64,000 nt of DNA from Beta vulgaris subsp. vulgaris (taxonomy: Eukaryota > Streptophyta > Magnoliopsida > Caryophyllales > Amaranthaceae): contig NC_079204.1 in the NCBI RefSeq assembly GCF_026745355.1, positions 51,074,209-51,138,208 on the forward strand, written 5' to 3'. The notes under the pieces were generated by a model. It was not told the origin of the DNA and searched no databases. It was given only the letters and a program-made list of their open reading frames with translations. The first letter of the stretch is position 1, and each line of letters begins with the position of its first letter. Shown here piece by piece: positions 6,410 through 59,961 of this stretch. A program made the position numbers and the translations under genes.

Positions 6410-7190
6410 TAGTATCGTGGGTGTTGTGAACTTGGGATCTTGCCACTTTGGTGACACAACTGACAACACCAATAGAGCATTGGAGCATGGTGGCTAGTGC
6501 TTTAATGTCCTTGATGGACCGATGATCCACTGTAATATTGTATAGAAAAAATTTTGAACATAGGTTGCGCTGAGACAGTACACGAGAATATGTGAGTCTG
6601 TTTGGATTGCAAGACGGTTATATCCTCTTTCTTTAGCCAATTTTAAGGCATACAAGCAAGCTCGTGCTTCCGTCATTAGCGCATAGTTGGCAAGAAGGCA
6701 TCGTCCCAATTCTTGTTTGCGTGGTAGAATCTGGTGTAGAGGTGGGCATGGCCCGGGGAGTCGGGCCACCACGTCGGCCGGCCTGGCCTGGCACGAGTTC
6801 GCTCAAGGCTCGGCCCGACCCGTTGTCCGTTATGCTCGTCTGTCATGGTCAAGAAATTATATTTCAGGCCCATTCCGGCACGAGCTCGCCTTTTTCTTTG
6901 TTTTTTAGTCTAAAATTGTCAAAAAAAAATACAACATAAAACACAGGTAAGGTCCACAAGAAGCACGAGCCCGACCGTGGATATAGGCCGGGCCGTGAAC
7001 AAAATTTGAAAATTTCAATCACAGCACGACCCACCATTCATGGGCTCGGGCTCGGCCCGCCAGTGCCCAATGCCCGTGGTCTAAGCCCGGCTCATCATGC
7101 CCATGTCTAATCTGGTGCAATTCAAGCAAAACTCCCAAGATGAGTAGTTTTGTCCCATGAGCCATCTATTATGATAGTTATATCCGAAGT
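6410..7190 (-). pseudogene. LINE RNase H domain relic
   Basis: Read on the minus strand, the segment starts with IDGSWDKTTHLG (about 7180-7118), is split by a hAT MITE, and resumes through TEARACLYALKLAKERG (about 6680-6580) and LAIQTDSH. This is the pattern of the plant LINE-type RNase H domain (reverse-transcriptase-like, RVT_3). A stop lies after GSFA, and frame shifts occur further on, so it is dead. No reverse transcriptase is attached. It is either an isolated LINE fragment or an old domesticated RNase H-like gene piece. Confidence 0.65.
6737..7109. mobile_element. hAT MITE, GC-rich
   Basis: A 373-bp unit with ends TAGAGGTGGGCATGG and CATGCCCATGTCTA. It is flanked by a perfect 8-bp duplication ATCTGGTG (6729-6736 and 7110-7117). 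The body is rich in GGCC and CGGGC motifs and has no coding capacity. It interrupts the RNase H relic, which reads on from both flanks. Confidence 0.85.
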
Positions 7191-7339
7191 TACCTAACGA
7201 GTTCGCCCAATATTAGTTGCAATGAAACCTGTTGAGAAGAGTGCATCTCTTTGCTCGCTGTGTGCATGTGTTGTTTCTAAAGTGAAAGTTATGCTCTTAA
7301 ACTCTTAGATATCCCTTCTATTCTAGTATATCTTCTATC

Positions 7340-7705
7340 TGTTAAAGGTTAATCTAGAAAAATCTAGATGTGTAATGAAAAATATAGTATAAAGTATAAA
7401 ATAATCAAGTGATGATGTATCTAGAAATATCTTGTAAAAATCAAGATATTAGACAAGTGTAGAGAAATCTAAAAACTAAGGTACAACAACTATAAATATG
7501 TTGTATGTGTATGAGTTAAGGAAGAGCCAAACAAGTGAGGTCCACACAAGATATTAGGAAAGGTAGAAACAAAAGGTTCTACCAAGGTGAATGAGAGAAA
7601 TGAGCTCTCACAAACACACTTGTACAATTAATTATCAATGAAAATTCAATTTTACGATACTATTCGGGTCCATCAAAACTTCCATATGCGCCACAAATTA
7701 TATCA
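7340..7705 (+). repeat. 5' LTR of the non-autonomous element
   Basis: Starts TGTTAAAGG and ends in CA immediately before the primer-binding site. It aligns along its length with the split 3' LTR, with several substitutions and indels, so the element is considerably older than the Copia element at 13.4 kb. Confidence 0.75.
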
Positions 7706-7718
7706 TGGTATCGGAGCC
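7706..7718 (+). promoter_or_regulatory. Primer-binding site (tRNA iMet type)
   Basis: TGGTATCGGAGCC directly follows the 5' LTR. It differs by one base from the usual plant TGGTATCAGAGCC, complementary to the 3' end of initiator methionine tRNA. Confidence 0.8.
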
Positions 7719-7992
7719 ACAAAAGTGATCACGAAGAAGATCGAAGGCCCGAGAGATGGAAATCAAGTTTGTAAGAAGAGACTTGGAGGGCACAATTAAG
7801 GTAAGTATCTAATACAAAATTTCAAAGAAGATAATTCAAAAGGAAGGTATGGAGATGAAATAAAAGAGTTTTAATTAAGAGAAGACAAAAACGGAAGATA
7901 TGTTTGGAAATTAAAATATGATGATGGAGAAAAAAAAGGATGAGATAACTTTTGACAAAGGTTGAAGATTAAAATGTAGGATAAGTTGGATG

Positions 7993-8426
7993 GTTGGTGA
8001 CATGAACATTAACAAATGAAATTAATATTGGAAGAAAAGGAAAGAATGAAAAATATGGGAGGATATTGGTGACAAGAGCACCAATAGTTGAAAAAAAAAC
8101 AAAATGAAAAGAAAAAGAAGCAAAAGAAAAAAAGTTCAAGAGAAAGATTTTGGAGTTTGCTAATGACATGGGCATTAGTCAGAAATGATTGGTGACATGA
8201 GCATCAATTAAAGAATGAAATTGAATAAAGATATGTGAAGAAGAAAAATAAAAAAAGTTCAGATTAGGGGGAGTAAGTTGGTAACATGGGTACCAACACA
8301 AAACATTGAAGATCAAGAAGATGTGAACTGTGAAGAGAAAGCAAAACTGAGGATAGTTGGTGACATGGGCACTAACAAAAGCAATTTCAGTGCATGGTCG
8401 AGTTGTTGATGACAAGTGCATCAACA
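7993..8426 (+). other. Array of seven hairpins with a fixed 7-base loop
   Basis: Seven stem-loops lie at 7993-8013, 8064-8086, 8159-8179, 8188-8208, 8277-8297, 8356-8376 and 8404-8426. Each has a stem of 7-8 bp and a loop of exactly seven bases reading ACA(T/A)G followed by two variable bases, usually ACATGGG or ACATGAG. Stem sequences differ but pairing is kept: TTGGTG/CACCAA, CTAATG/CATTAG, TTGGTA/TACCAA and GTTGATG/CATCAAC. The other changes give G-U pairs that pair only in plus-strand RNA. Spacing is irregular. A structured RNA signal of the element, such as packaging or dimerisation, is inferred; no known family was recognised. Confidence 0.75.
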
Positions 8427-8461
8427 GATTTAAATTTTTGAAAGTATAAATTTATCAAGAT

Positions 8462-8471
8462 TAAGGGGGAG
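8462..8471 (+). promoter_or_regulatory. Polypurine tract
   Basis: AAGGGGGAG immediately precedes the TGTTAAAGG start of the 3' LTR, the normal position for priming plus-strand DNA. Confidence 0.8.
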
Positions 8472-8794
8472 TGTTAAAGGTTAATCTAGAAAAATCTAGA
8501 TGTGTAATGAAAAATATAGTGTAGAGTATAAAATAAGTGATGATGTATCTAGAAATATCTTGTAAAAATCAAGATATTAGACAAGTGTAGAGAAATCTAG
8601 AAACTAAGGTACAACAACTATAAATATGTTGTTCTCTTTCAAAAAAAAAAAACTATAAATTTGTTGTATGTGTATGAGTTAAGGAAGAGCCAAACAAGTG
8701 AGCTCATCCACACAAGATATTAGGAAAGATAGAAACAAAGGGTTCTACCAAGGTGAATGAGAGACATGAGCTCTCACAAACACACTTGTACAAT
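8472..8794 (+). repeat. 3' LTR, first part
   Basis: Matches 5' LTR positions 7340 to about 7630. It carries a 35-bp gain at 8632-8666 relative to the 5' LTR and is cut by the hAT element at 8795. The remaining part is 12596-12672. Confidence 0.8.
8632..8650 (+). mobile_element. 19-bp ultra-truncated retroelement insertion
   Basis: TTCTCTTTC followed by a run of A is inserted in the 3' LTR. It is flanked by 16-bp direct repeats at 8616-8631 and 8651-8666 (15 of 16 identical). The 5' LTR has a single copy of that target and no insert. TTCTCTTTC plus poly(A) is exactly the 3' terminus of the retroelement at 39530-40741. Confidence 0.75.
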
Positions 8795-8879
8795 CAGTGG
8801 CGGAGCCAGGATTTTAAACTTGGGGATACGATGAATAACTAATTAAAAATACTCTCATGTATACACTACAAGAAAATAC

Positions 8880-9205
8880 GTCAACAACGACCGCTTAAAG
8901 CCGTCGCTAATGAGAAAAAAGCCGTCGCTATTATGATCAACGACGGCCAGCCGTCGTTGAAAGTCGGACGTTGGAGAAATGGTCGGTGATTAAGTAATCA
9001 ACGACGGTTCGGCCGTCGGTGAAGTATCACCGACCGTTCTGCACCCAATCACCGACTGCGTCCTGAAGCCGTCGTTGACTTCATTCCAACGATCGCTTTA
9101 AGTTGTCGTTAAATCAACGACGGTTTATAACAGTAGTTAAATCAGCGACGGTTTAAAACAGTCGTTGATTGTTTAACGTCTGCTTAAAGCGGTCGTTAAT
9201 TCAAG
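8880..9205. repeat. CACTA subterminal repeats, left
   Basis: Repeated units built on CAACGACGGTTT and GCCGTCGCTAAT in both orientations. The matching right-end cluster is at 11440-11660. Such arrays are the binding sites for the element's accessory protein in known En/Spm systems. Confidence 0.8.
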
Positions 9206-9589
9206 TCTTTTATAATGCAGGCTAAAGAATAACAAATTAATATCACAAAGAATAAGATGCAATGGAAGAAACTTGAGAATAGAAAAGAATGAAGAATAAC
9301 AATTGAATAACCATTCAATTAGAGAATTCAACTCACTGAAATTATTTCAACCAAGAAGAAAAGGATGGAAGAACAAATTAATATCACAAAGCAAAATTGT
9401 AGACATAATTTTTTTGCCATTCCACAGTATTGGTCAAAGTACTTTATAAACTAAATAACTAATTTACACAAAAACTCCCTAAAAGTCAGAAGACGCAAGA
9501 TTGAAGATGACCACAAAGATCATAAGTATGTTGTGACAACAAAAGCTTCAAAGTCACATTTCTTCACATATTCTAACTCTCATAAATTA

Positions 9590-11437
9590 CAAAAATGTTT
9601 TGCAGCAGGGACTAACTTCCCTTCCTTGATGGCTTGCTGCATCATCAGATAAATAATGGGCTTGTGTATGTACAACCTGTCAAAGTTGAAATCATCCGAT
9701 GAGTTTATCGCATAATCAATCAATAAATCGGTAACAAATCACATTCAAGCACATAACCGAATTTGGGAATTATGACAACACAAGTTAAAATGAGCATAAA
9801 AAGTTAATGAGAAAAAACGTAAAATGAGCAATATACTTTTGTAGGAGCCTTAACCTTATCAGAAATAATTGATGCTTGGTTTAGTTTGGTTAGTGAACTA
9901 CTAATGCAGCACAAATATATATTATCTTATAGACTATCGCAAAATTGACTTGAATGAAAAAAGAGTGGTAATCTTACTAAACCATTCCATTCGAGCATCT
10001 GGACATTTAGTACTGAAGCAACCCAACATTCTGGATAAGTAAGATAGGCCTAGTCTATTACAAAACAAGTTCTAGATGTAAAAGATAATAGAAGTCCCTT
10101 CACTTTTAAAATTTACTGGAACAAATCCACCAATACTGCGAGGATATTATCACCATTTGTCAATCCAAAAGAGAGAGGTAGGAAAAAGAAAACCCATTAT
10201 ACACTACAGTCACTCCTCAATTCATAGGCCAAACTCCAGACCCTCCCAAGCCACAAGATCAATGCATAAAATATGACTTAACAATGCATGTATCAATTTA
10301 AAGCATTTAAAAGTAATTCAGATTCCACAGAGCAAAATGCTGCTAGTTTATAACTCATTTCAGCACATAAAGTCACTTCCATTGCATTTTTTCAAAGATC
10401 AGAAATATCATTTTTTTCAAATCTTGTTTTGAGTGGAAAAGAAATCAGCTTGTGTATGTTTCATGTTTCTACTTCTCACAACTAGAGGTATTCTCCAATT
10501 CTAAACTAGCAGTTCAGCGTGATAGAGACATTGAGCGTGAGTTGCTTCTAATTTCAATACCATAAAGCAGAGTATTTATCAATTTGTAGATTTGACAACA
10601 AGAACAAGTGAGCAAGTATAATCTAAAATTGTAGGAACAAATGAATTAACAAAAGAGATATAGATATAGTGTATTTTCTGTAAGTAACGATAATTTGTTT
10701 GAATTGCACTTCAAAGTGGGAGATTTGGATACAAGAGAAAGAAAAAAATTACTTGGTGAGATGGTCAGGTGGTGCTGTCGATAAGAAGACATTGAACATT
10801 GCAGATTTCAGTGAATCGAGCTCCGATTTCACAACCGTTCTCACTGTTCAAAATTGCAGGCTTTGATTCCTCCATTTTCACAGCCGAGGGACTCATGAAT
10901 TTCCCACCTAAACCCTGAAAAAAAAACAATCGAAAATTTCTAAAAAAAAAATCAAAACTAAACGTAAAGGAACATGATAAAATAGCAACAAGAAAATCAA
11001 ATTAGTGAAAAAAACAAAAACGTACTACAATTTCAACTCAAGAACAAGAGTAGATCTCTTCGATTTCTCCGCCGACAATGTGACAGATTTTCAGATCAGT
11101 ACCCAAAAAAATCGAAAATTGGAAACCCTAGAACTCGAGAAATTAAAAAAAAGACGATGAAAAATAAAATAAAACTTGAAATCAAAATCCCTTACCTTCT
11201 TAGAGATGGAGTTGAAACCCTTTTTTTGGATTCTCTTTTTTCCGTTTCACTTTCTCTCTCCTCAGTCTCTATCTCTTCAATAAGCGTTCGTTGCTCTGTT
11301 GGATTGAGAGGGAGGAGGAAGGAGCAGATCTGAAGAGGAGAGAGATGAGGGATTAGGGTTGACCGGTTGAGTAAGGAGAGGGAGGAATGAGGAGAGAGAG
11401 AGCAGATCTGAAGAACACGAAACTTTGTTTTGTCATC
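9590..11437 (-). other. Exon-like segments inside the CACTA element
   Basis: On the minus strand an open frame starts at 11443 (MSDDKTKFRVLQ) and reaches a donor-like AAGAAG/GTAAGG near 11196. An acceptor-like TTTTTTCAG/GGTTTAGG sits near 10918, followed by a 43-codon frame beginning MSPSAVKMEE. A last exon-like piece after GACAG near 9680 encodes IYLMMQQAIKEGKLVPAAKH before a stop at about 9590. I do not recognise these. They could be remnants of the element's own gene or captured host exons. Confidence 0.35.
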
Positions 11438-12672
11438 ACTCATCAGCGACCGTTTAACACAGTTCCTTAAATTGAAAAAATCTAAAAATTATAATAATAA
11501 AACTAACGACTGTTCTAAACGGTCGTTGATAAACAACGACGGTTTATCCGTCGCTGATCACTCTAAAAGCCGTCGGTGGCAACGACCGTTTTAAACCGTC
11601 GCTGACTACAAGAATAACAACCGTTTTTAGAACCGTCGCAGTGAAGCCGTCGTTGTTTTGGCCTTTTCTTGTAGTGATATTACAAACGATTTAATATAAC
11701 AAAATGACAAGCCAAAATATTTACCAATACTAAGAGTCATACACCCCAAAATACGAAAAAAAATTACATAAGCTTTCAATAATTCGACGGGTCTTCATCT
11801 TTTGAAAACGATTCATCACACAAATTGAGATACTTCACTTACTCAATAATTCAATTAATATTTAGTAATTACTAACCTAGTTTAATCATACAATCGTAAT
11901 TCGTATAAACTAAATTACAAAGAATGAATTTTCATATTATATAATTTATTACTTATAAACATATAGATTATATATTAATGCTATGAAATACAAGAATACA
12001 AGATATAATAATGTAAAACTAATTTTTTAAAAAAATTAACCTGCGAATTGCGATGCTGCTTTCCGGCGAGGCGGTGATCGGGGGTGTTTCCGGTTAGATG
12101 TGCTCGGTGCGATGCTGCGACAGTGCTTCCCAGTTCCCAGTCGCCGGTGTGGTGGTTGTGTTGCTTCAGTTCAGACTTAACGGCGTTCACGCTGTGGAAT
12201 TTGGAAATAGAGGTATTTGGGTTGGGTAACTTACTGAGTGATACTTTTGGGAGAGAGAAGAGAGTCTTTTTTTTAATTTTGAATTAATATCAGATTTAAT
12301 TTTGGGAGGGAGAGATTTTTTTTTTAAAAGAAAATGTTAATTAATTGTGGAGAGGCCTACCAGTTCTTTTTTGTTTTGATTCCCCATGCTTACATGTCAC
12401 TGTCAATTTAACACATTAAATTTTGCCAGCCAAATTACTGAATTAGCCGTTGAAGTGTTGAGTGTTGAACCACCTTTCCTCACTCATTCAGATTTTTCTT
12501 TTTTTTTTTTTTAATAATTGCTTCACATTTTTTTTACAATCCGGGGATGCGGCTGTACCCCCACCGCCCCACGTGGCTCCGCCACTGTGTACGATTAATT
12601 ATCAACGAAAATTCAATTTTACGATACTATTCGGGTCCATCAAAACTTCTGTATGCGCCACAAATTCTATCA

Positions 12673-13414
12673 TATATACTGTAGTTCCTTATGAAAATAG
12701 ATTTTTTCTAAAGCGTCAAAATTACCTTGTACTCTGTCACCCTAAATGAAACTATACCCATAAACCTAACTCAGATAAAATGGCACAAGTGATTAGATTG
12801 TTGTACATCAACTACTCTAGTAAAAGTGCAGGAAATGTATGTTTTTGGCTAGACAAATTTTAGTGTGGGCATTATAGCTAGACTTCAAGCGATGGGTGAG
12901 AAAGGAATATATATTCAGATGATAAGAATGAGCAGTATAAGCTTCAAGTTCAGAGGTTTAATCACCACCATCCAAGAATATCTTTCGCTCCACCTTTGTA
13001 AATTGTAATTTGTAAGTGGAACAACACAAATTTTGTGATTTTGCAGAAAAGACACTAGTGACATTTAGCTGTGTAAAGTATGCACAGATCCTCACATGTT
13101 TATAAGCCCAAATAAATGTGTAAAACAAACGGGCCCAAAGCAAGGGATACTTCCTTTTTGTTTTTGTTTTTTTTAATACTTGTCCTTCCTTTTTCTTAAA
13201 TCAGTAAAACATAATTTCTTCCATTTTTTATTACTTGCAACATGGGTCGTTCTTCGCCCCCCTTGCTCATAGTTTCTGCCTCAAATCTCAAAATACCATT
13301 GCGCTAAGGAGCTGACACTCTTTTGGTTGCTCCTCTCTGTTTATTCCGTTTTCTTTAACAATCACTCTACTTCATGATTACCATCTCCACACCCATATAC
13401 CCAACATTTTAAAA
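12673..13414. other. Intergenic, nothing recognised
   Basis: AT-rich DNA between the older LTR element and the Copia insertion. The small frames here have no recognisable protein content. Confidence 0.6.
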
Positions 13415-13830: not shown

Positions 13831-16800
13831 ATGGCTTCATCTACTCCTACTGTAATAGAACAAACAAATCCTTTATATCTTCATCCCTCAGATGGGAATA
13901 ACTTTACATTCATAGATAAACTCCAAGGATCTTCAAATTACAGATCTTGGAAACGTTCTATGGAAATAGCATTAGCTTCCAAAAGGAAGTTAGGATTTAT
14001 TACAGGAGTAATTAAAAGGGATAAGAAAGATGCAGTTAAGCAAGATGCTTGGGACACATGTAACAACATGATTATATCCTGGATTCTTGGTTCTGTAAAT
14101 GAATCAATCAAGAAGTCCATCATGTTTGTTAGTGATTCAAGAGAAATATGGAATCAACTTGAAAAAAGATTTTCTCTTACAAATGGTACTAGAAAATATA
14201 AACTCTGTAAAGAGATTTATGAAACCAAACAGCAAGGAAGAGAGATCAGTGAGTATTACACTCATATGAAATGCTACTGGGAAGAGCTTGAAGCCCTTAA
14301 CACTTTACCACCCATAACAACTGTGAGTGCAGAAATCACCAAATTTATGGAAGTTCTGACTCAGCAACAAGAAGAACAGAAACTTTTTCAGTTTCTGAAT
14401 GGACTTGATGAGTCCTATGGAACACAAAGAAGTAATTTACTCATGATGGGTACCTTACCTAATGTTGAAACAGCATGTAGTTATCTGGAGCAAGAAGAAG
14501 CTCAAAGAGAAGTATTGGGGCAAGTTAAGGAAGAAAATGATACTGTTGCCATGTTCTCTAGAGGCACAGGGGGAGCCAGTAACAGCACTCAGGCTCCTAA
14601 TCAATGTACAGTGTGTGGAAAAATAGGTCACACTAAGGATGGCTGCTGGTTTGTCATAGGTTTTCCTGCAAAAACTAACAAACCGAAGTATCAAGGTGCA
14701 GGAAAAGGAAAATTTAAAGCTACTGGGCAGCAGAAATGGAACAAAGGAGGAAAACAAGGTGGAGTGAAAGTGGCTGCTGCTGCTCAACAGGATGCAGTGT
14801 CCACATCAAGCTCATCCACCACCATCACAGCACAGCAACTGGAACAACTTTTGAGGTTACTTCCTCCTCCATCTAAAGGAGGAGATACAGATGAAGAGAT
14901 GGATTATAATTTTTCAGGCATGGTTTCATGTTGCTTTGCTAACTCAAGAGAAAATGAGTGGATCTTGGATTCTGGAGCCTCAGATCACATGACTGGGACT
15001 TATTCTCTTTTAGAAGGTGCTCATGAATGCAGAAATACCTCTCTCATAAACTTACCCACAGGTGAGACTTCTAAAATTTCTCATATAGGAACTGTTTTAC
15101 TCTTGAATGGTGTGAGTCTTAAACATGTTCTATATATCCCTGCTTTTAAACATAACTTATTATCTATAAATAAGTTGTGTGAAAACATGAAGTGCAAAGT
15201 TGTGTTCTTTGATAAATATTGTATAATACATGACTGTGAAAGCAATGAAGTGAAGGGTATAGGAAAGGGGGAGAATGGTCTCTATTATCTTATTAATGAG
15301 CCTGTTGCAAGCACTCTAAAGAAGCTTAAAGAGCAGACCTTTAACAGTGTGAGTGCTCAAAAGGGAAAAACAGCCTTGAATGTTCATACATGTTCTGAAG
15401 TACCTGGTGTGTTAAGAGATGTTCCAAAGCTTAGTAAAGCAACACTGTGGCATCATAGGCTTGGCCATGCACCAGTGAAAAGAATTGCTCTAATTGAGAA
15501 TCTTGATATAGGAAGAGAGAAGGGAGAAGTATGCTTGACTTGTCCATTGGCAAAATTCACTAAGTTGCCTTATGGAATAAGTAACTCTAGGGCAGAAGAT
15601 GTGTTTGAACTTGTTCATATGGATACTTGGGGGCCATATAAGGTAAGTTATAAAGGGAAATTTAGGTATTTCCTCACTTTGGTGGATGATAAGTCAAGAG
15701 TAACATGGATACACTTGTTGAAACTGAAATCTGATGCTTTTGATGCCATACAAAGGTTTGTAAACATGGCTAGAACCCAATTTAATAAAAGTGTAAAGGT
15801 CATCAGATCTGATAATGCACTAGAATTTGAAGATAAGAAATTGAAGCCATTCTTTGACAAACTGGGTATAATACATCAAACTTCTTGTCCTGATAGACCA
15901 CAGCAGAATGGGAGGGCTGAAAGGAGACATAGACATGTACTTGAAATGGCAAGAGCTTTAAGATTTCAAGCAAGTTTACCTTTACACTTCTGGGGGGACT
16001 GTGTTATGACAGCCACTTATATTACAAATAGGCTGCCAACTGATGTAAACAGAGGAAAAAGTCCTTATGAAGTCCTCTATGGAAAGGCTCCTAACTACAA
16101 TTTCATGAAGTGTTTTGGGTGTTTAGCATTTGCTTATAATCCTGAGAGAAAGAAAGACAAGTTTCAGGCTAGAGGTGTTCCCTGCATCTTTATTGGGTAC
16201 TCTCATACTCAGAAAGGATACAAAATGCACAACCTACTCACAGGGGTGTCATTTGTATCAAGGGATGTCAGATTCTATGAATCTGTATATCCATATCACA
16301 TATTTCACTCAGTATCATCACAACCAATTGAAGCATCAAGTAAAGCTCAGGTATGGAATGAAAGTGATGAAGGTGAACCTGTGTTAGTCAGGAGAGAAGA
16401 AGGTGAAGAACAAGTGATAGAGCAAGCTCAAGAAGAACAACACACTCAGGTTGTTCAGAGAAGGTCCACAAGGGATCATAAAGCTCCCACCTGGCACTCA
16501 GATTATCAAGTTAATGTGAATTGTGTACAAAAAGTGGGTGTGACTGATGTGAGTAATGAATACACCTGTCTCCTGAGTAATGTGAGTAAAGTACCTGATC
16601 CCAGATATTTTAAACAAGCTGTGAAGCACAGTCAGTGGCTACAAGCTATGAATGAAGAGTTAGAAGCTCTTGAAGGCAACAACACTTGGTTGATCACTCA
16701 CCTGCCACCTGGAAAGAAGGCAATAGGATGCAAGTGGCTTTATACAACTAAGTATGATCCACAGAGAGAGAGTACAAGGTATAAGTCAAGACTGGTAATC

Positions 16801-18183
16801 CTGGGTAACAGACAACAGTATGGTCTTGATTACAGAGAGACCTTTGCTCCAGTTGCAAAGATGACAACTATAAGGTCTCTATTGGCTGTTGCAGCAATGC
16901 AAGGGTGGTATACTCACCAAATGGATGTAAAAAATGCTTTTTTACATGGTGAGTTAGAAGAAACTGTGTTCATGACATTACCTCCTGGCTATGAAGGAGA
17001 GGGGTTCAGATTTGATACAGGTTTGACAAAGGAAATTCATACTTACAATGATGATAAAACAAGAGTTTGCAAACTGTTGAAACCTCTCTATGGGCTCAAG
17101 CAAGCCCCTAGACAGTGGTTTGCAAAATTAAGCTCAGTTCTGAAGGCTGATGGTTTTGTTCAATCAAAATCAGATCACTCTCTCTTTACCAAGCAAGAAG
17201 GAATCTCATTCACTGCTATACTGGCATATGTAGATGATTTGATTGTGACTGGCAACAATCTAAGGTGTATAAAGCAAGCAAAAGAGTTCCTCAACACAGA
17301 GTTCAAGATGAAGGACATGGGTGAACTAAGGTATTTCCTTGGAATTGAAGTTGACAGAAGCTCTCAAGGCATCTTCCTCTCTCAGAGAAAGTATGTTCAA
17401 GATATGCTAGAAGAATATAAACTCACTCAGTGTAGACCACTCAAGTTGCCTATGGATACTCATGTTAAACTTCTCTCTACCTCTGGAGAACCTTTAACAC
17501 AACCTGAAACATATCAAAGGTTGGTTGGGAAGCTAATTTATTTGACTCTCACCAGACCAGACATAGCCTATACTGTGCATGTCTTAAGTCAATTTATGCA
17601 TAGCCCTACTTCAGTACATCATCAGGCTGCAAGAAGAGTGCTGAGATATCTAGCTGGCTCCATAGATCAAGGCATACTTTTGGCTTCTAAGTCTGCTGCT
17701 AAGCTTCAAGCCTACTGTGATAGTGACTGGGCAGGGTGTCCTAACACCAGGAGATCCACCACAGGGTTTTGTATTCTACTAGGCAAGTCTCCAATAGCTT
17801 GGAAGTCTAAAAAACAAACTGTAGTTGCAAGATCTACAGCTGAAGCTGAATATAGATCTCTAGCCATGACTATCTGTGAAGTCATTTGGGTAAAACAGCT
17901 TCTCAGGGAGCTTGGAATCAAAGAATGGGGAAGCACACCAATTTTCTGTGATAATCAAGCAGCCTTGGCCATTGCTGCCAACCCAGTACATCATGAGAAG
18001 ACAAAACATGTTGGGATTGATTGCCATTTCATCAAGGAGAAAGTAGCTGAAGGACAAATCAATCCCACCTATGTGTCTACAAGCCAACAGATTGCTGATG
18101 TTCTCACTAAAGTTTTGACTGTAGAACAACATCAACTTCTATTGTCCAAGTTAGGAGTTCAGTCATCCTCACTCCTAGCTTGA
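13831..18183 (+). CDS. Copia gag-pol polyprotein, 1450 aa
   Basis: One intact frame encodes all retrotransposon proteins in Copia order. Gag occupies about residues 1-250, followed by a CCHC zinc knuckle at 259-272 (CTVCGKIGHTKDGC). The aspartic protease has the DSGAS motif at 380-384. The pre-integrase LWHHRLGH motif starts at 539. The integrase catalytic triad is D598, D661 and E697 (35 residues between the last two). Reverse transcriptase has YVDD with aspartates 1135-1136. RNase H follows, with D1297 in the CDSDWAG motif. There is no stop or frameshift, and the TGA overlaps the polypurine tract. The start chosen is the first ATG after the primer-binding site. Protein processing is inferred from family knowledge. 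Confidence 0.97.
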   Translation: MASSTPTVIEQTNPLYLHPSDGNNFTFIDKLQGSSNYRSWKRSMEIALASKRKLGFITGVIKRDKKDAVKQDAWDTCNNMIISWILGSVNESIKKSIMFVSDSREIWNQLEKRFSLTNGTRKYKLCKEIYETKQQGREISEYYTHMKCYWEELEALNTLPPITTVSAEITKFMEVLTQQQEEQKLFQFLNGLDESYGTQRSNLLMMGTLPNVETACSYLEQEEAQREVLGQVKEENDTVAMFSRGTGGASNSTQAPNQCTVCGKIGHTKDGCWFVIGFPAKTNKPKYQGAGKGKFKATGQQKWNKGGKQGGVKVAAAAQQDAVSTSSSSTTITAQQLEQLLRLLPPPSKGGDTDEEMDYNFSGMVSCCFANSRENEWILDSGASDHMTGTYSLLEGAHECRNTSLINLPTGETSKISHIGTVLLLNGVSLKHVLYIPAFKHNLLSINKLCENMKCKVVFFDKYCIIHDCESNEVKGIGKGENGLYYLINEPVASTLKKLKEQTFNSVSAQKGKTALNVHTCSEVPGVLRDVPKLSKATLWHHRLGHAPVKRIALIENLDIGREKGEVCLTCPLAKFTKLPYGISNSRAEDVFELVHMDTWGPYKVSYKGKFRYFLTLVDDKSRVTWIHLLKLKSDAFDAIQRFVNMARTQFNKSVKVIRSDNALEFEDKKLKPFFDKLGIIHQTSCPDRPQQNGRAERRHRHVLEMARALRFQASLPLHFWGDCVMTATYITNRLPTDVNRGKSPYEVLYGKAPNYNFMKCFGCLAFAYNPERKKDKFQARGVPCIFIGYSHTQKGYKMHNLLTGVSFVSRDVRFYESVYPYHIFHSVSSQPIEASSKAQVWNESDEGEPVLVRREEGEEQVIEQAQEEQHTQVVQRRSTRDHKAPTWHSDYQVNVNCVQKVGVTDVSNEYTCLLSNVSKVPDPRYFKQAVKHSQWLQAMNEELEALEGNNTWLITHLPPGKKAIGCKWLYTTKYDPQRESTRYKSRLVILGNRQQYGLDYRETFAPVAKMTTIRSLLAVAAMQGWYTHQMDVKNAFLHGELEETVFMTLPPGYEGEGFRFDTGLTKEIHTYNDDKTRVCKLLKPLYGLKQAPRQWFAKLSSVLKADGFVQSKSDHSLFTKQEGISFTAILAYVDDLIVTGNNLRCIKQAKEFLNTEFKMKDMGELRYFLGIEVDRSSQGIFLSQRKYVQDMLEEYKLTQCRPLKLPMDTHVKLLSTSGEPLTQPETYQRLVGKLIYLTLTRPDIAYTVHVLSQFMHSPTSVHHQAARRVLRYLAGSIDQGILLASKSAAKLQAYCDSDWAGCPNTRRSTTGFCILLGKSPIAWKSKKQTVVARSTAEAEYRSLAMTICEVIWVKQLLRELGIKEWGSTPIFCDNQAALAIAANPVHHEKTKHVGIDCHFIKEKVAEGQINPTYVSTSQQIADVLTKVLTVEQHQLLLSKLGVQSSSLLA

Positions 18184-57432: not shown

Positions 57433-59961
57433 TCAAGAGAGAGATCCTCGAATTTTCCTAAGAGCCAAATAATCATACGCATGAACAAGCCGCTTCTTGA
57501 ATCTCCTAAGATCTAACTTAACATTCTGCTTATCCAGATAGATCCTCTTAGTGTACTCCCAACCTTTTGCGTTTACACTATCAGGGTCGCTTAGAACAGG
57601 ATCAGTTATATCATAATCATCATGCAATGAGCTCTCTTTTGGAAGAATTTTGTACCCAATATACTTCAAACCAAGCTTCATCGCGGGATCTCCATAGTAA
57701 GTCTGAGCTGCCCAATCAGTTCCTAGAGGAACAACTTGAATGAAAACACGGCTAGGCTTAACAAAGAGAAAGTGTGTCATGGCTGCACCATGGACTCCAA
57801 TCATCACATCACTAGAGTTAAGTGCCCTATAAATCTTCGCTAACTCAGTGGTTCGCTCTGGCCTTACCACCTCAACCTGAAAACCGATTTTTTCAGCTAG
57901 TTTCACTAGTGAGTCTTCATTGAGTATTGCCCTAGACCCACTTCTTGAAAGTATGACCAACTTTGGTTTCTTTGGTGAATCATCATACTCAAGTAAGGCG
58001 GTGGTGGAGGATGGAGATTGTGAGACTTGCTTCTCCCTTTCCTCATCTAGAATTAAATCTGTAATTCGAGGCAAATAAGCTCGGTCCAAGATGTTCCTAA
58101 AGTCCCTAATTGACTTGTTTTCTCTCATAAGGGATTGATCAATAGTGAGCTCATCATGTATATTCAAACCCACAATGGTTTCTGGAAAGCAATGTGTTCG
58201 ATTATCTCCATTGAAGTCAATGGGTGGATAATCAGTCAAGTGGGAAAGAATATCCCCATACTTAGTCAACCACCAATCATGATATTCAAGGATGACAAAC
58301 ACAACTTTCTTCTTAAAATGCTGAGAAGTGATGTATAACGGGACTATACCGTCATTGAATTCGTGGTAGACGTTTCCAGTATATCCTCCTGTTGAGAAGA
58401 ACACTGCTGGAACATCATGGACAACATCACATTTATGCTGAGAATTGCTGGTTTTGTGCTTTGACACAAGTGAAAGTTCTTCAATGGTGTTCATAACACT
58501 ACTTTCCCATTTTCGGGTGTAAGGCCTAACCTTTTCGCCTTCACCCAAACTACCTTTCTGATCATTTTGAGTGTAAAGGAAGATTGAAGAAGTAGATGAA
58601 TGTGTCCTTATGTCACCCTTCATGTAACATACATCAGTCCTGATACTACTTCTATCACAACATATTGTTCCTGCATTTAAAGTTACAAATTTTTTGGAAA
58701 ACACAACAATTAAACAACTTAACAAGTAAATTTTAGCATTCAAAGATCATAAACACAAATCTCTGTTACACATATTTCTTCCTATCAATACTTTTACTAA
58801 TATATACCAAGGATGTCTTGGCCTAATGGTTAAGATTGAGGTGCTGTGAACAATAGGTCACAAGTTCGAATCCCCCCTCCCCTTCTTTGTACTTTGTACC
58901 GCCTTCGTGACTTATGGATAAAATACTTTTACTAATATATAAGGTGATTTTTTTATCATCAAATGTGTGCATTTGAAAATGACAAACTGATGCAAATAAC
59001 AATCTTGGGTGGCTGACTATTTCAAACTTACTAATCTATGCAAATCCCACATAATACTACATACATGATACATCAAAGTCCAAACTATTATGTAATTAAT
59101 TGAAAAGTAGCACACGCAAAACCTTTCAAACTTTTTGTTCATTATTTTAATTTAGGCATGGAAAGTAATTAAACTGATTGATTCTTTTACGCAATCTTAG
59201 CAATTTGACAGCCATCTTAATGACAAATCAATGAATCTAAATTTCACTTTTCCATATCAAACTTTATGTTAAAATACTTTACATCATCATAATATTAAGT
59301 GAATTAAATTTGAGAAAACTAAGAGTTTCTACTTTTGGTCTTTTAAATGGGTAAAATGAATGTTTTCTTGTAATTTTAGAGAGAGTAGCAGAGTATTATA
59401 CCAACAACAACAAAGCCTTATTAGTCTAAAAATGATGTATGAACAATAAACATAAACAAATCATTAGAGAAAAAGAACAAACCATTAGAGACGTATGAAC
59501 AAAGAGGAAGCTTTGAACCCATATCATCATTCTCAGCTCCTAATGAATCTGAAAAATTCACAAAAAATACAAAAAATTAACAAAAATTAGAAGATTAAAA
59601 CAGGGGTTTTAAGAAAAAAAGAAAAGAAACACACACCCATAAAAAAAATTACTGAAAAAATCAAACATGCAAAAACAAAACAAAAGTTGAGAAAAAAAAG
59701 AGAAGATTTGGTTGTAGTTTGCTTACAGAGGAGAGAGAAAGTGGAGGGAAAACCAAAGAGTTGAGGAGTCCATATGAGACTACATGAGAGAAGAGATAGA
59801 AAAAGGAAAGTAAGAAGTTTTGGTCTAATTGCTCTTTTGAAATAACTTCCATTTATAGAAAGTAGCCCAATTTGTGATTCTTCATCTGATATAATGAAGT
59901 TTTTAACAAAGTTTTCTCCTTTCTTCATATTTTGGCAATAGTATCTTTGATGATGCACCAT
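57433..59961 (-). CDS. GT61 Golgi glycosyltransferase
   Basis: Three exons join in frame: 59727-59961, 59483-59548 and 57433-58670, giving 512 aa. A cytosolic tail is followed by one membrane anchor (about residues 49-70), so a type II Golgi protein is predicted. The luminal part contains the family pattern PLCSYVSNGTICCDRSS, then CYMKGDIRTHS, YHEFNDGIVPLY and GVHGAAMTHFLF (about 390-402). These are hallmarks of family 61 (DUF563), whose plant members add xylose or arabinose to cell-wall xylans. The exact sugar is not predictable here. Met at 59928 is an alternative start. Intron 2 holds a SINE. The first exon is essential because the 57433-58743 frame alone lacks the anchor. Confidence 0.92.
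58807..58921 (+). mobile_element. Short tRNA-derived SINE in the GT61 intron
   Basis: It is flanked by perfect 20-bp repeats AATACTTTTACTAATATATA (58787-58806 and 58922-58941). It contains an A-box-like TGGCCTAATGG and a B-box-like GTTCGAATCC, spaced as in a tRNA, followed by CTTTGTACTTTGTACC. At 115 bp it is little more than a tRNA head. It cannot fold as a full tRNA by eye. Confidence 0.85.

Follow-up and report, generated by a model that had tools for sequence, protein, structure and literature searches.

The window, that is, the whole 64,000-nucleotide stretch of Beta vulgaris subsp. vulgaris DNA that was analyzed, contains an LTR retrotransposon spanning positions 7340–8794 and 12596–12673; all of its features described here lie on the forward (+) strand. 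The 5′ LTR (7340–7706; 367 bp, TG...CA) was identified by blastn alignment of the LTR pair, and its boundaries match those of other copies that carry exact 5-bp target duplications. At the window copy, inspection of the flanks revealed no exact target duplication. The 3′ LTR is split by a nested insertion (about 8795–12595) into a first part (8472–8794), which shows 7 mismatches to the 5′ LTR in 285 aligned bases plus indels, and a last part of 78 bp (12596–12673), which is 94.9% identical to the end of the 5′ LTR (both by blastn). The nested insertion starts with CAGTGGCGGAGCCAGGATTTT, features AACGACGG inverted repeats at 8886–9200, and gave microRNA family matches in Rfam, all of them sub-threshold. 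A GGGCC/GGCCC-rich stretch (6740–7115) lies 5′ of the element in otherwise AT-rich surroundings. The window also holds an intact Ty1-copia frame of 1450 codons (13831–18183) and a xylan glycosyltransferase gene (57433–58743), to which Spinacia and Amaranthus proteins are closest among the named matches (82% each).

The 5′ LTR possesses a TATA-like box (TATAAATA, 7491–7498), and the RNA would start ∼30 nt 3′ of it. The LTR is adjoined by a primer binding site (PBS; TGGTATCGGAGCC, 7707–7719), which we take to be of the initiator Met tRNA type; the word GGTATC[AG]GAGC of this site was found in 25 of the 37 family loci that were fetched from the genome. It is followed by a splice-donor-like sequence (GGTAAGTA, 7799–7806) of the pattern RGGTAAGY, which recurs 40–220 nt 3′ of the PBS in 28 of the 37 loci, including two divergent subfamilies. 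This strong GGTAAGT at 7799–7806 might be used in splicing or might shield the poly(A) site of the 5′ LTR. A polypurine tract (PPT; AAGGGGGAG, 8463–8471) adjoins the 3′ LTR, and a PPT-like internal copy (AGATTAGGGGGAG, 8261–8273) is situated directly 5′ of hairpin H5 (see below), with a similar tract at the same place in 19 of the 37 loci. The internal copy is a possible second plus-strand start. PBS and PPT of the element are presumably of the copia type. The internal region between the LTRs (7707–8471; 765 bp) has a longest sense frame of 56 codons from stop to stop, in agreement with the earlier note on this DNA, which had called it non-coding. A minus-strand frame runs across the hairpins, and a search for a protein homologue of this frame found none.

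The internal region contains seven hairpins on the sense strand, each composed of a 7-bp stem and a 7-nt loop that starts with ACA(T/A)G. By pattern search, these are H1 (GTTGGTG-ACATGAA-CATTAAC, 7993–8013), H2 (ATTGGTG-ACAAGAG-CACCAAT, 8065–8085), H3 (GCTAATG-ACATGGG-CATTAGT, 8159–8179), H4 (ATTGGTG-ACATGAG-CATCAAT, 8188–8208), H5 (GTTGGTA-ACATGGG-TACCAAC, 8277–8297), H6 (GTTGGTG-ACATGGG-CACTAAC, 8356–8376), and H7 (GTTGATG-ACAAGTG-CATCAAC, 8405–8425). All stem-loops listed in the earlier note were thereby recovered. The ACAWG word occurs seven times in the internal region and heads such a loop every time, and 2000 dinucleotide shuffles of the region yielded a mean of 0.003 hairpins of this type (maximum 1). 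A further candidate, H8 (TTGAAGT-ACAAGAA-TTTTCAA), was rejected, since the bases that should close its loop do not pair. The start-to-start spacings are 72, 94, 29, 89, 79, and 49 nt; since all but the first are out of frame, a repeated peptide in which each hairpin encodes seven codons is ruled out.

The stems differ in sequence and nevertheless stay paired, as had been claimed. All 49 stem cells of H1–H7 form standard pairs, and both sides have changed at five of the seven pairs, which was reached by 1 of 500 shuffles; none of the 500 reached the covariation score. The count of further pair types is ordinary (reached by 120 of 500 shuffles). If the seven stems are derived from one presumed parental stem by 19 substitutions, ∼10.8 broken pairs are expected under neutrality. 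None is observed, an outcome that did not occur in 100,000 neutral simulations. In predicted folds of the array, all seven hairpins never form at once. Instead, H3 pairs preferentially with H4 and, when the span is unlimited, H1 with H6. The predicted mutual pairing of H3 and H4 (8157–8210) makes a two-state switch possible; their starts lie 28 nt apart in all of the 22 places that a pattern located in the 37 loci and 29 nt apart in the window. Within the loop, folding programs often add a C2–G7 pair, which would leave a bulged A and a four-base loop. Comparison of the downstream spacers in 15 pairs, with H3 left out for its 8-nt spacer, reveals a clear relationship only for H2/H4 (z 4.1), followed by H4/H5 (z 2.4) and the remaining pairs (z below 2). 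In addition, blastn aligns the H1 unit with the H4 unit, hairpins included.

The same loop is also found outside the array. In the LTRs, hairpin a consists of TGAGAG-AAATGAG-CTCTCA at 7592–7610, where the loop of the window's 5′ LTR is mutated, and of TGAGAG-ACATGAG-CTCTCA at 8758–8776 in the 3′ LTR (fold prediction and pattern). The neighboring hairpin b is GGTAGAA-ACAAAAGG-TTCTACC in the 5′ LTR (7562–7583; 8-nt loop) and GATAGAA-ACAAAGGG-TTCTACC in the 3′ LTR (8728–8749; one broken pair), ACAAAGGG being the commonest loop of this hairpin across the family. A predicted fold of the R region (7531–7623) encloses two hairpins within an outer stem formed by ACAAGTG (7531–7537) and CACTTGT (7617–7623), with z −2.58 for the folding of 7520–7660. 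The stem of hairpin a is unrelated to the internal stems, and its loop ACATGAG is identical to that of H4. Of 43 LTR hairpins shaped in this way across the family, 37 carry the ACATGAG loop. Exact matches to the hairpin a 19-mer number 133 in the genome (0 for the reversed control), and a hairpin of this type arises in 10 of 5000 shuffled LTRs. The claim of seven hairpins therefore stands for the array itself and is too small for the element, as the LTRs and, as shown below, the relatives hold further ones.

Taking the window element and the 37 loci together, ACATG heads a hairpin of at least 6 bp with a 7-nt loop in 158 of 224 occurrences and ACAAG in 73 of 273. These two words top all 1024 five-base words; the next by count are AATCA (13/121) and ACGTA (13/17). 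At loop position 7, the 38 hairpin types present in at least two loci show G in 32 and A in 6 cases; these types were chosen on ACAWG, so that those letters restate the selection. CAUG is found in 23 and CAAG in 15 of the 38 loop types. Some good stems carry other loops (GCTAATG-ACATCAG-CATTAGC, GCTAATG-ACAAAGG-CATTAGC, and GTTGGTG-ACGTAGG-CACCGAC; loci L038–L074 and L096–L109). ACAWGNR is therefore the main form and no strict rule.

The element belongs to a family. A homology search of the 569-Mb Beta assembly with 7993–8426 as the query returned 50 rows, namely the window itself, 40 strong rows at 37 loci, and 9 small rows within those. There are at least 37 further matching loci outside the window, all of which were fetched; the number is a lower bound because 40 of 129 first-look candidates were scored. 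ACAWG hairpins are present in 37 of 37 loci, with 2 to 9 internal hairpins of at least six paired positions out of seven per locus, where counts of nine include the rejected H8 (up to 8 without it). A PPT–LTR junction pattern (≤2 mismatches) matches 34 places in the genome (reversed control, 0). Twenty-four of these lie outside the fetched loci, and the 15 stretches that were read hold 18 of the 24. All but one of the 15 possess internal ACAWG hairpins; the exception, L095, is an incomplete element with only the LTR one. The matching internal stretches of these relatives are 66–92% identical to that of the window. Among six loci read around the LTR hairpin, L110 is a further hairpin element with stems of its own, and five show LTR sequence only in the 2.5 kb read. 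A tandem array at G000:C2:34673522-34718545, part of which is covered by locus L099, consists of ∼1.3-kb units of one subfamily with LTR and hairpins.

Reading 20 copies together with more of their flanks revealed an LTR pair in 19, and the element size there is 1.4–1.9 kb. A 5-bp target duplication was called in 9 of the 20 (one of them AAAAA within an A run); TG and CA were required, and a shift of the ends by 6 bases was tolerated. In the youngest LTR pairs there are 0, 1, and 3 mismatches, which indicates that the family moved recently. The longest sense frame among those listed for eight relatives has 76 codons.

We extended the covariation analysis to the stem types of the family. From 70 21-mers present in at least two loci, 32 without a four-pair inner stem and four LTR types were removed. 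In the resulting 34 types, 97.5% of 238 cells are paired, a figure for selected types that compares with 1750 of 1831 cells without selection. Double changes occur at six of the seven pairs (reached by 14 of 500 shuffles) and in 42 cells versus 10.2 ± 5.2 in shuffles, none of which reached 42 in 500. Further pair types are again unremarkable in number (reached by 41 of 500 shuffles). The earlier note had also argued that the G-U pairs make sense only in sense RNA. This argument is a modest one: in the window, five G-U pairs face no A.C pair, and the 34 selected types show 15 versus 2, but it is weaker in the family at large (11 versus 6 among unselected pair states in at least two copies).

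Compensated differences are also apparent between subfamilies A–F, a grouping made in the present analysis. The comparison comprises 54 rows, among them two of the several L099 units but not the incomplete L095; hairpin orthology is taken from the alignment, and some shuffling of hairpins may have occurred. Across subfamilies, H1 reads GTTGATG/CATCAAC or GTTAGTG/CACTAAC, and H2 reads ATTGGTG/CACCAAT, GCTAATG/CATTAGC, or GTTGGTG/CACCGAC. H3 alternates between GCTAATG/CATTAG and, in one copy, GCTAAAG/CTTTAG, and the closing pair of H6 is either G-C or A-T. Common mismatches are found in H6 of subfamily C (T.C at pair 2) and at the outermost pair of H4 of subfamily D. CAAG is the common form at H2, at H7, and at H6 of subfamilies B and C.

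According to the earlier note, its claim would be refuted if the stems of other copies decayed at the neutral rate, and singleton and shared variants were compared to test this. In an alignment of 39 units, from which the middle one of L055 was excluded, singletons were taken as mostly post-insertion changes and shared variants as changes of the source lineage. Singleton rates per cell are equal across classes (stem 0.0166, loop 0.0196, and spacer 0.0171), whereas shared variants are ∼threefold rarer in stems (0.0268) than in spacers (0.0824), with loops at 0.0482. Counted as events (shared, at least three copies), stems show 62 singleton and 13 shared changes versus 192 and 109 in spacers (Fisher p = 0.0015), and loops show 37 and 11 (p = 0.074 versus spacers; stems and loops combined, p = 0.0008); these p values are guides only, because shared variants are mutually dependent. 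The LTRs behave alike. The shared rate is 0.023 in the stems of both LTR hairpins and 0.0675 in the remaining LTR stretch, with similar singleton rates; here, a variant present in both LTRs of the same element is treated as shared, whatever its class.

Inserted copies hence decay neutrally, with no constraint on dead copies. In the source elements, by contrast, selection maintains RNA hairpins whose loop is nearly constant: shared variants are depleted in the stems, pairing is kept, and double changes occur. This bears out the central claim of the earlier note that the RNA structure of this non-autonomous LTR element is selected. More generally, setting singletons against shared variants in genomic copies is an easy way to tell selection acting on source elements apart from neutral decay.

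The element is best explained as a TRIM-like, non-coding LTR retrotransposon with an array of one RNA recognition element. In this recognition element, a 6–7-bp stem of free sequence would present the loop A-C-A-W-G-N-R, and it recurs at some seven or eight places in the internal region as well as in both LTRs. Because one loop sits on many different stems, we propose that a protein reads the near-constant loop, the stems being interchangeable, and that having so many copies gives the RNA a higher avidity for this protein. The protein is most likely the Gag/nucleocapsid of a putative autonomous Ty1-copia element. The array would let the non-autonomous RNA enter the particles of that element, to be followed by reverse transcription from the PBS and integration. 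We favor packaging by Gag because an LTR element without coding capacity depends on the Gag of another element and because there is a precedent in BARE2, a Gag-less copia element that is packaged in trans in BARE1 particles (PMC3735527; this and the other papers cited are used as far as their text was available to us). We give the reading of the hairpins as a Gag-binding packaging array of a putative autonomous partner slightly less than even odds (roughly 0.45). More tentatively, the multiplicity itself could be the packaging code, in that ∼nine or more operator hairpins per RNA, internal and LTR ones together, make the parasitism effective. If so, the array would have evolved by repeated duplication of a hairpin, and the non-coding RNA would outcompete its autonomous partner for Gag. 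How plant LTR retrotransposons choose their RNA for packaging and how TRIMs borrow proteins is poorly known, and the hairpin motif provides a specific bait with which to look for the protein, as well as a route to the partner.

Several observations do not sit easily with packaging. The dimerization and packaging sequences of HIV-1, Ty1, and Ty3 are at the 5′ end (PMC11381356), whereas most hairpins lie in the 3′ half here. In predicted folds the seven do not form together, as H3 pairs with H4 and, when the span is unlimited, H1 with H6. The dispersed hairpin packaging signals proposed for STNV-1 (AxxA) found no support in vivo (PMC6475782). Conservation of the loop alone is marginal (p = 0.074, as above), some loops depart from ACAWG, and the count of further pair types is ordinary both in the window and in the family. 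Furthermore, the earlier note had suggested looking for an autonomous partner that shares these LTRs, and this expectation was disappointed in the 21 additional loci read: neither the 15 PPT–LTR junction stretches nor the six LTR-hairpin loci gave a copia coding match. The intact copia element of the window (13831–18183) is an unlikely partner because blastn found none of the hairpin element's LTRs around it and because it is devoid of 7-nt ACAWG hairpins with 6 bp.

The position of most hairpins in the 3′ non-coding part would suit a different protein. The hairpins could recruit a host protein for the nuclear export or stability of the unspliced non-coding RNA, comparable to the constitutive transport elements of simple retroviruses and to the RTE and MTE of mouse IAP and MusD; cis elements of this kind are known from mammalian retroelements (PMC12786077, PMC10746203). 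With GGTAAGT following the PBS in 28 of 37 loci, retaining unspliced RNA could indeed be a problem for the element. However, the ACAWG loop is also present in the LTR, near the presumed RNA start, no Rfam motif has such a shape, and the available text of the cited literature contains no comparable plant case. We therefore regard an export or stability element as unlikely.

A role of the loops in RNA–RNA contacts is less probable still. Self-complementary CAUG could pair two RNAs, or two hairpins of one RNA, by loop kissing, and arm exchange would then yield an extended duplex. Ty1 makes use of kissing loops, which have also been proposed for Ty3 dimerization (PMC5454406, PMC11381356). The CAUG in 23 of the 38 loop types, the predicted joining of H3 with H4 and of H1 with H6, and the fixed 28-nt distance of H3 and H4 are in line with this possibility. 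Yet 15 of the 38 types have CAAG, which is not self-complementary and renders kissing through CAUG less likely, and neither the constant first A nor the purine at position 7 would be needed for it.

Could the hairpins be without function? Template-switch mutation can create and maintain stems (PMC8794818), here by rewriting one arm from the other and so keeping the hairpins perfect. Reverse transcription offers many opportunities for such switches, and part of the region did grow by duplication (H2/H4 units). We consider this origin improbable. Template switching can also turn a loop around, yet the 60 commonest hairpins listed with 7 bp and a 7-nt loop include none in which this has happened. 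It should also restore Watson-Crick pairs, whereas G-U pairs persist (15 in the 34 types), and it explains neither the low shared next to normal singleton variation nor the same loop on the unrelated LTR stem. Finally, a young tandem duplication of a palindrome, with pairing kept through mere youth, is very improbable: for all the relationship of the H2/H4 units outside the hairpin and the blastn match of the H1 and H4 units, recent tandem duplication is disfavored by the comparison of spacers, where only H2/H4 are clearly related, and of subfamilies, since 19 stem differences have broken no pair and the array is present in relatives with internal stretches of 66–92% identity.

Database searches set the hairpin array apart from known RNA families. 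In Rfam 15, no match within 7000–9500 reaches the gathering score of its family. Viral contigs yielded 24 loci with one hairpin-pattern match each, about the chance number estimated, and no match to the copia polyprotein of the window. In prokaryote genome contigs, the PPT–LTR pattern is absent (0), and five single hairpin-pattern matches in MAGs were read as chance. In searches of open-licence papers, no description of such a hairpin array came up in the text available to us, and together with Rfam this agrees with the earlier note, which knew of no described family with the motif. The family itself may already be in a beet repeat library, one of which lists 60 TRIMs (PMC11603912).

Retrozymes are likewise non-coding elements of plants, with ∼350-bp LTRs, 600–1000 bp between them, a PBS, a PPT, and LTRs that contain a functional RNA motif (PMC4918200). 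In retrozymes, however, this motif is a hammerhead ribozyme, and their conserved ends match Ty3-gypsy (PMC4918200). Identity with a retrozyme was rejected by the hammerhead test, as Rfam gave no hammerhead match in 7000–9500 at E up to 5. Ty1 SL1a/SL3a and the Ty3 DS are short RNA hairpins of LTR elements with functional loops (PMC5454406, PMC11381356). Unlike the array described here, with its many copies of one loop, they number one or two and are located at the 5′ end. In the MS2 operator, a variable short stem presents a constant loop to the coat protein. Similarly, the AxxA motif proposed for STNV-1 would offer a constant loop on short variable stems to the coat protein (PMC6475782); both are cases from RNA viruses or phages, and the in vivo role in STNV-1 is unsupported (PMC6475782). 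The MPMV CTE, IAP RTE, and MusD MTE are structured retroelement RNAs that recruit a host protein (PMC10746203, PMC12786077). They belong to mammalian elements.

Two further parallels are non-autonomous plant elements. In barley, the RNA of BARE2, a non-autonomous Ty1-copia element, undergoes packaging in trans (PMC3735527). BARE2 differs in lacking the gag start while keeping other coding sequence and the dimerization and packaging signals, and a repeated hairpin array goes unmentioned in the available part of that report (PMC3735527). Like TRIMs and SMARTs, for which tandem arrays are also known (PMC4717578), the present element is a short non-coding LTR element. The plant TRIM survey gives an average of 685 bp, with 225 of 289 subfamilies below 1 kb and listed sizes of up to 1,449 bp, and names no coding partner or relative for 278 of the 289; the words hairpin, stem-loop, and secondary structure are absent from its available text (PMC4717578). 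With TG...CA LTRs, a 5-bp duplication in family copies, PBS and PPT adjoining the LTRs, and no coding capacity, the element fits the TRIMs, though it is somewhat large. Compared with the TRIM average it is larger (∼1.4–1.9 kb versus 685 bp), and it has a conserved hairpin array.
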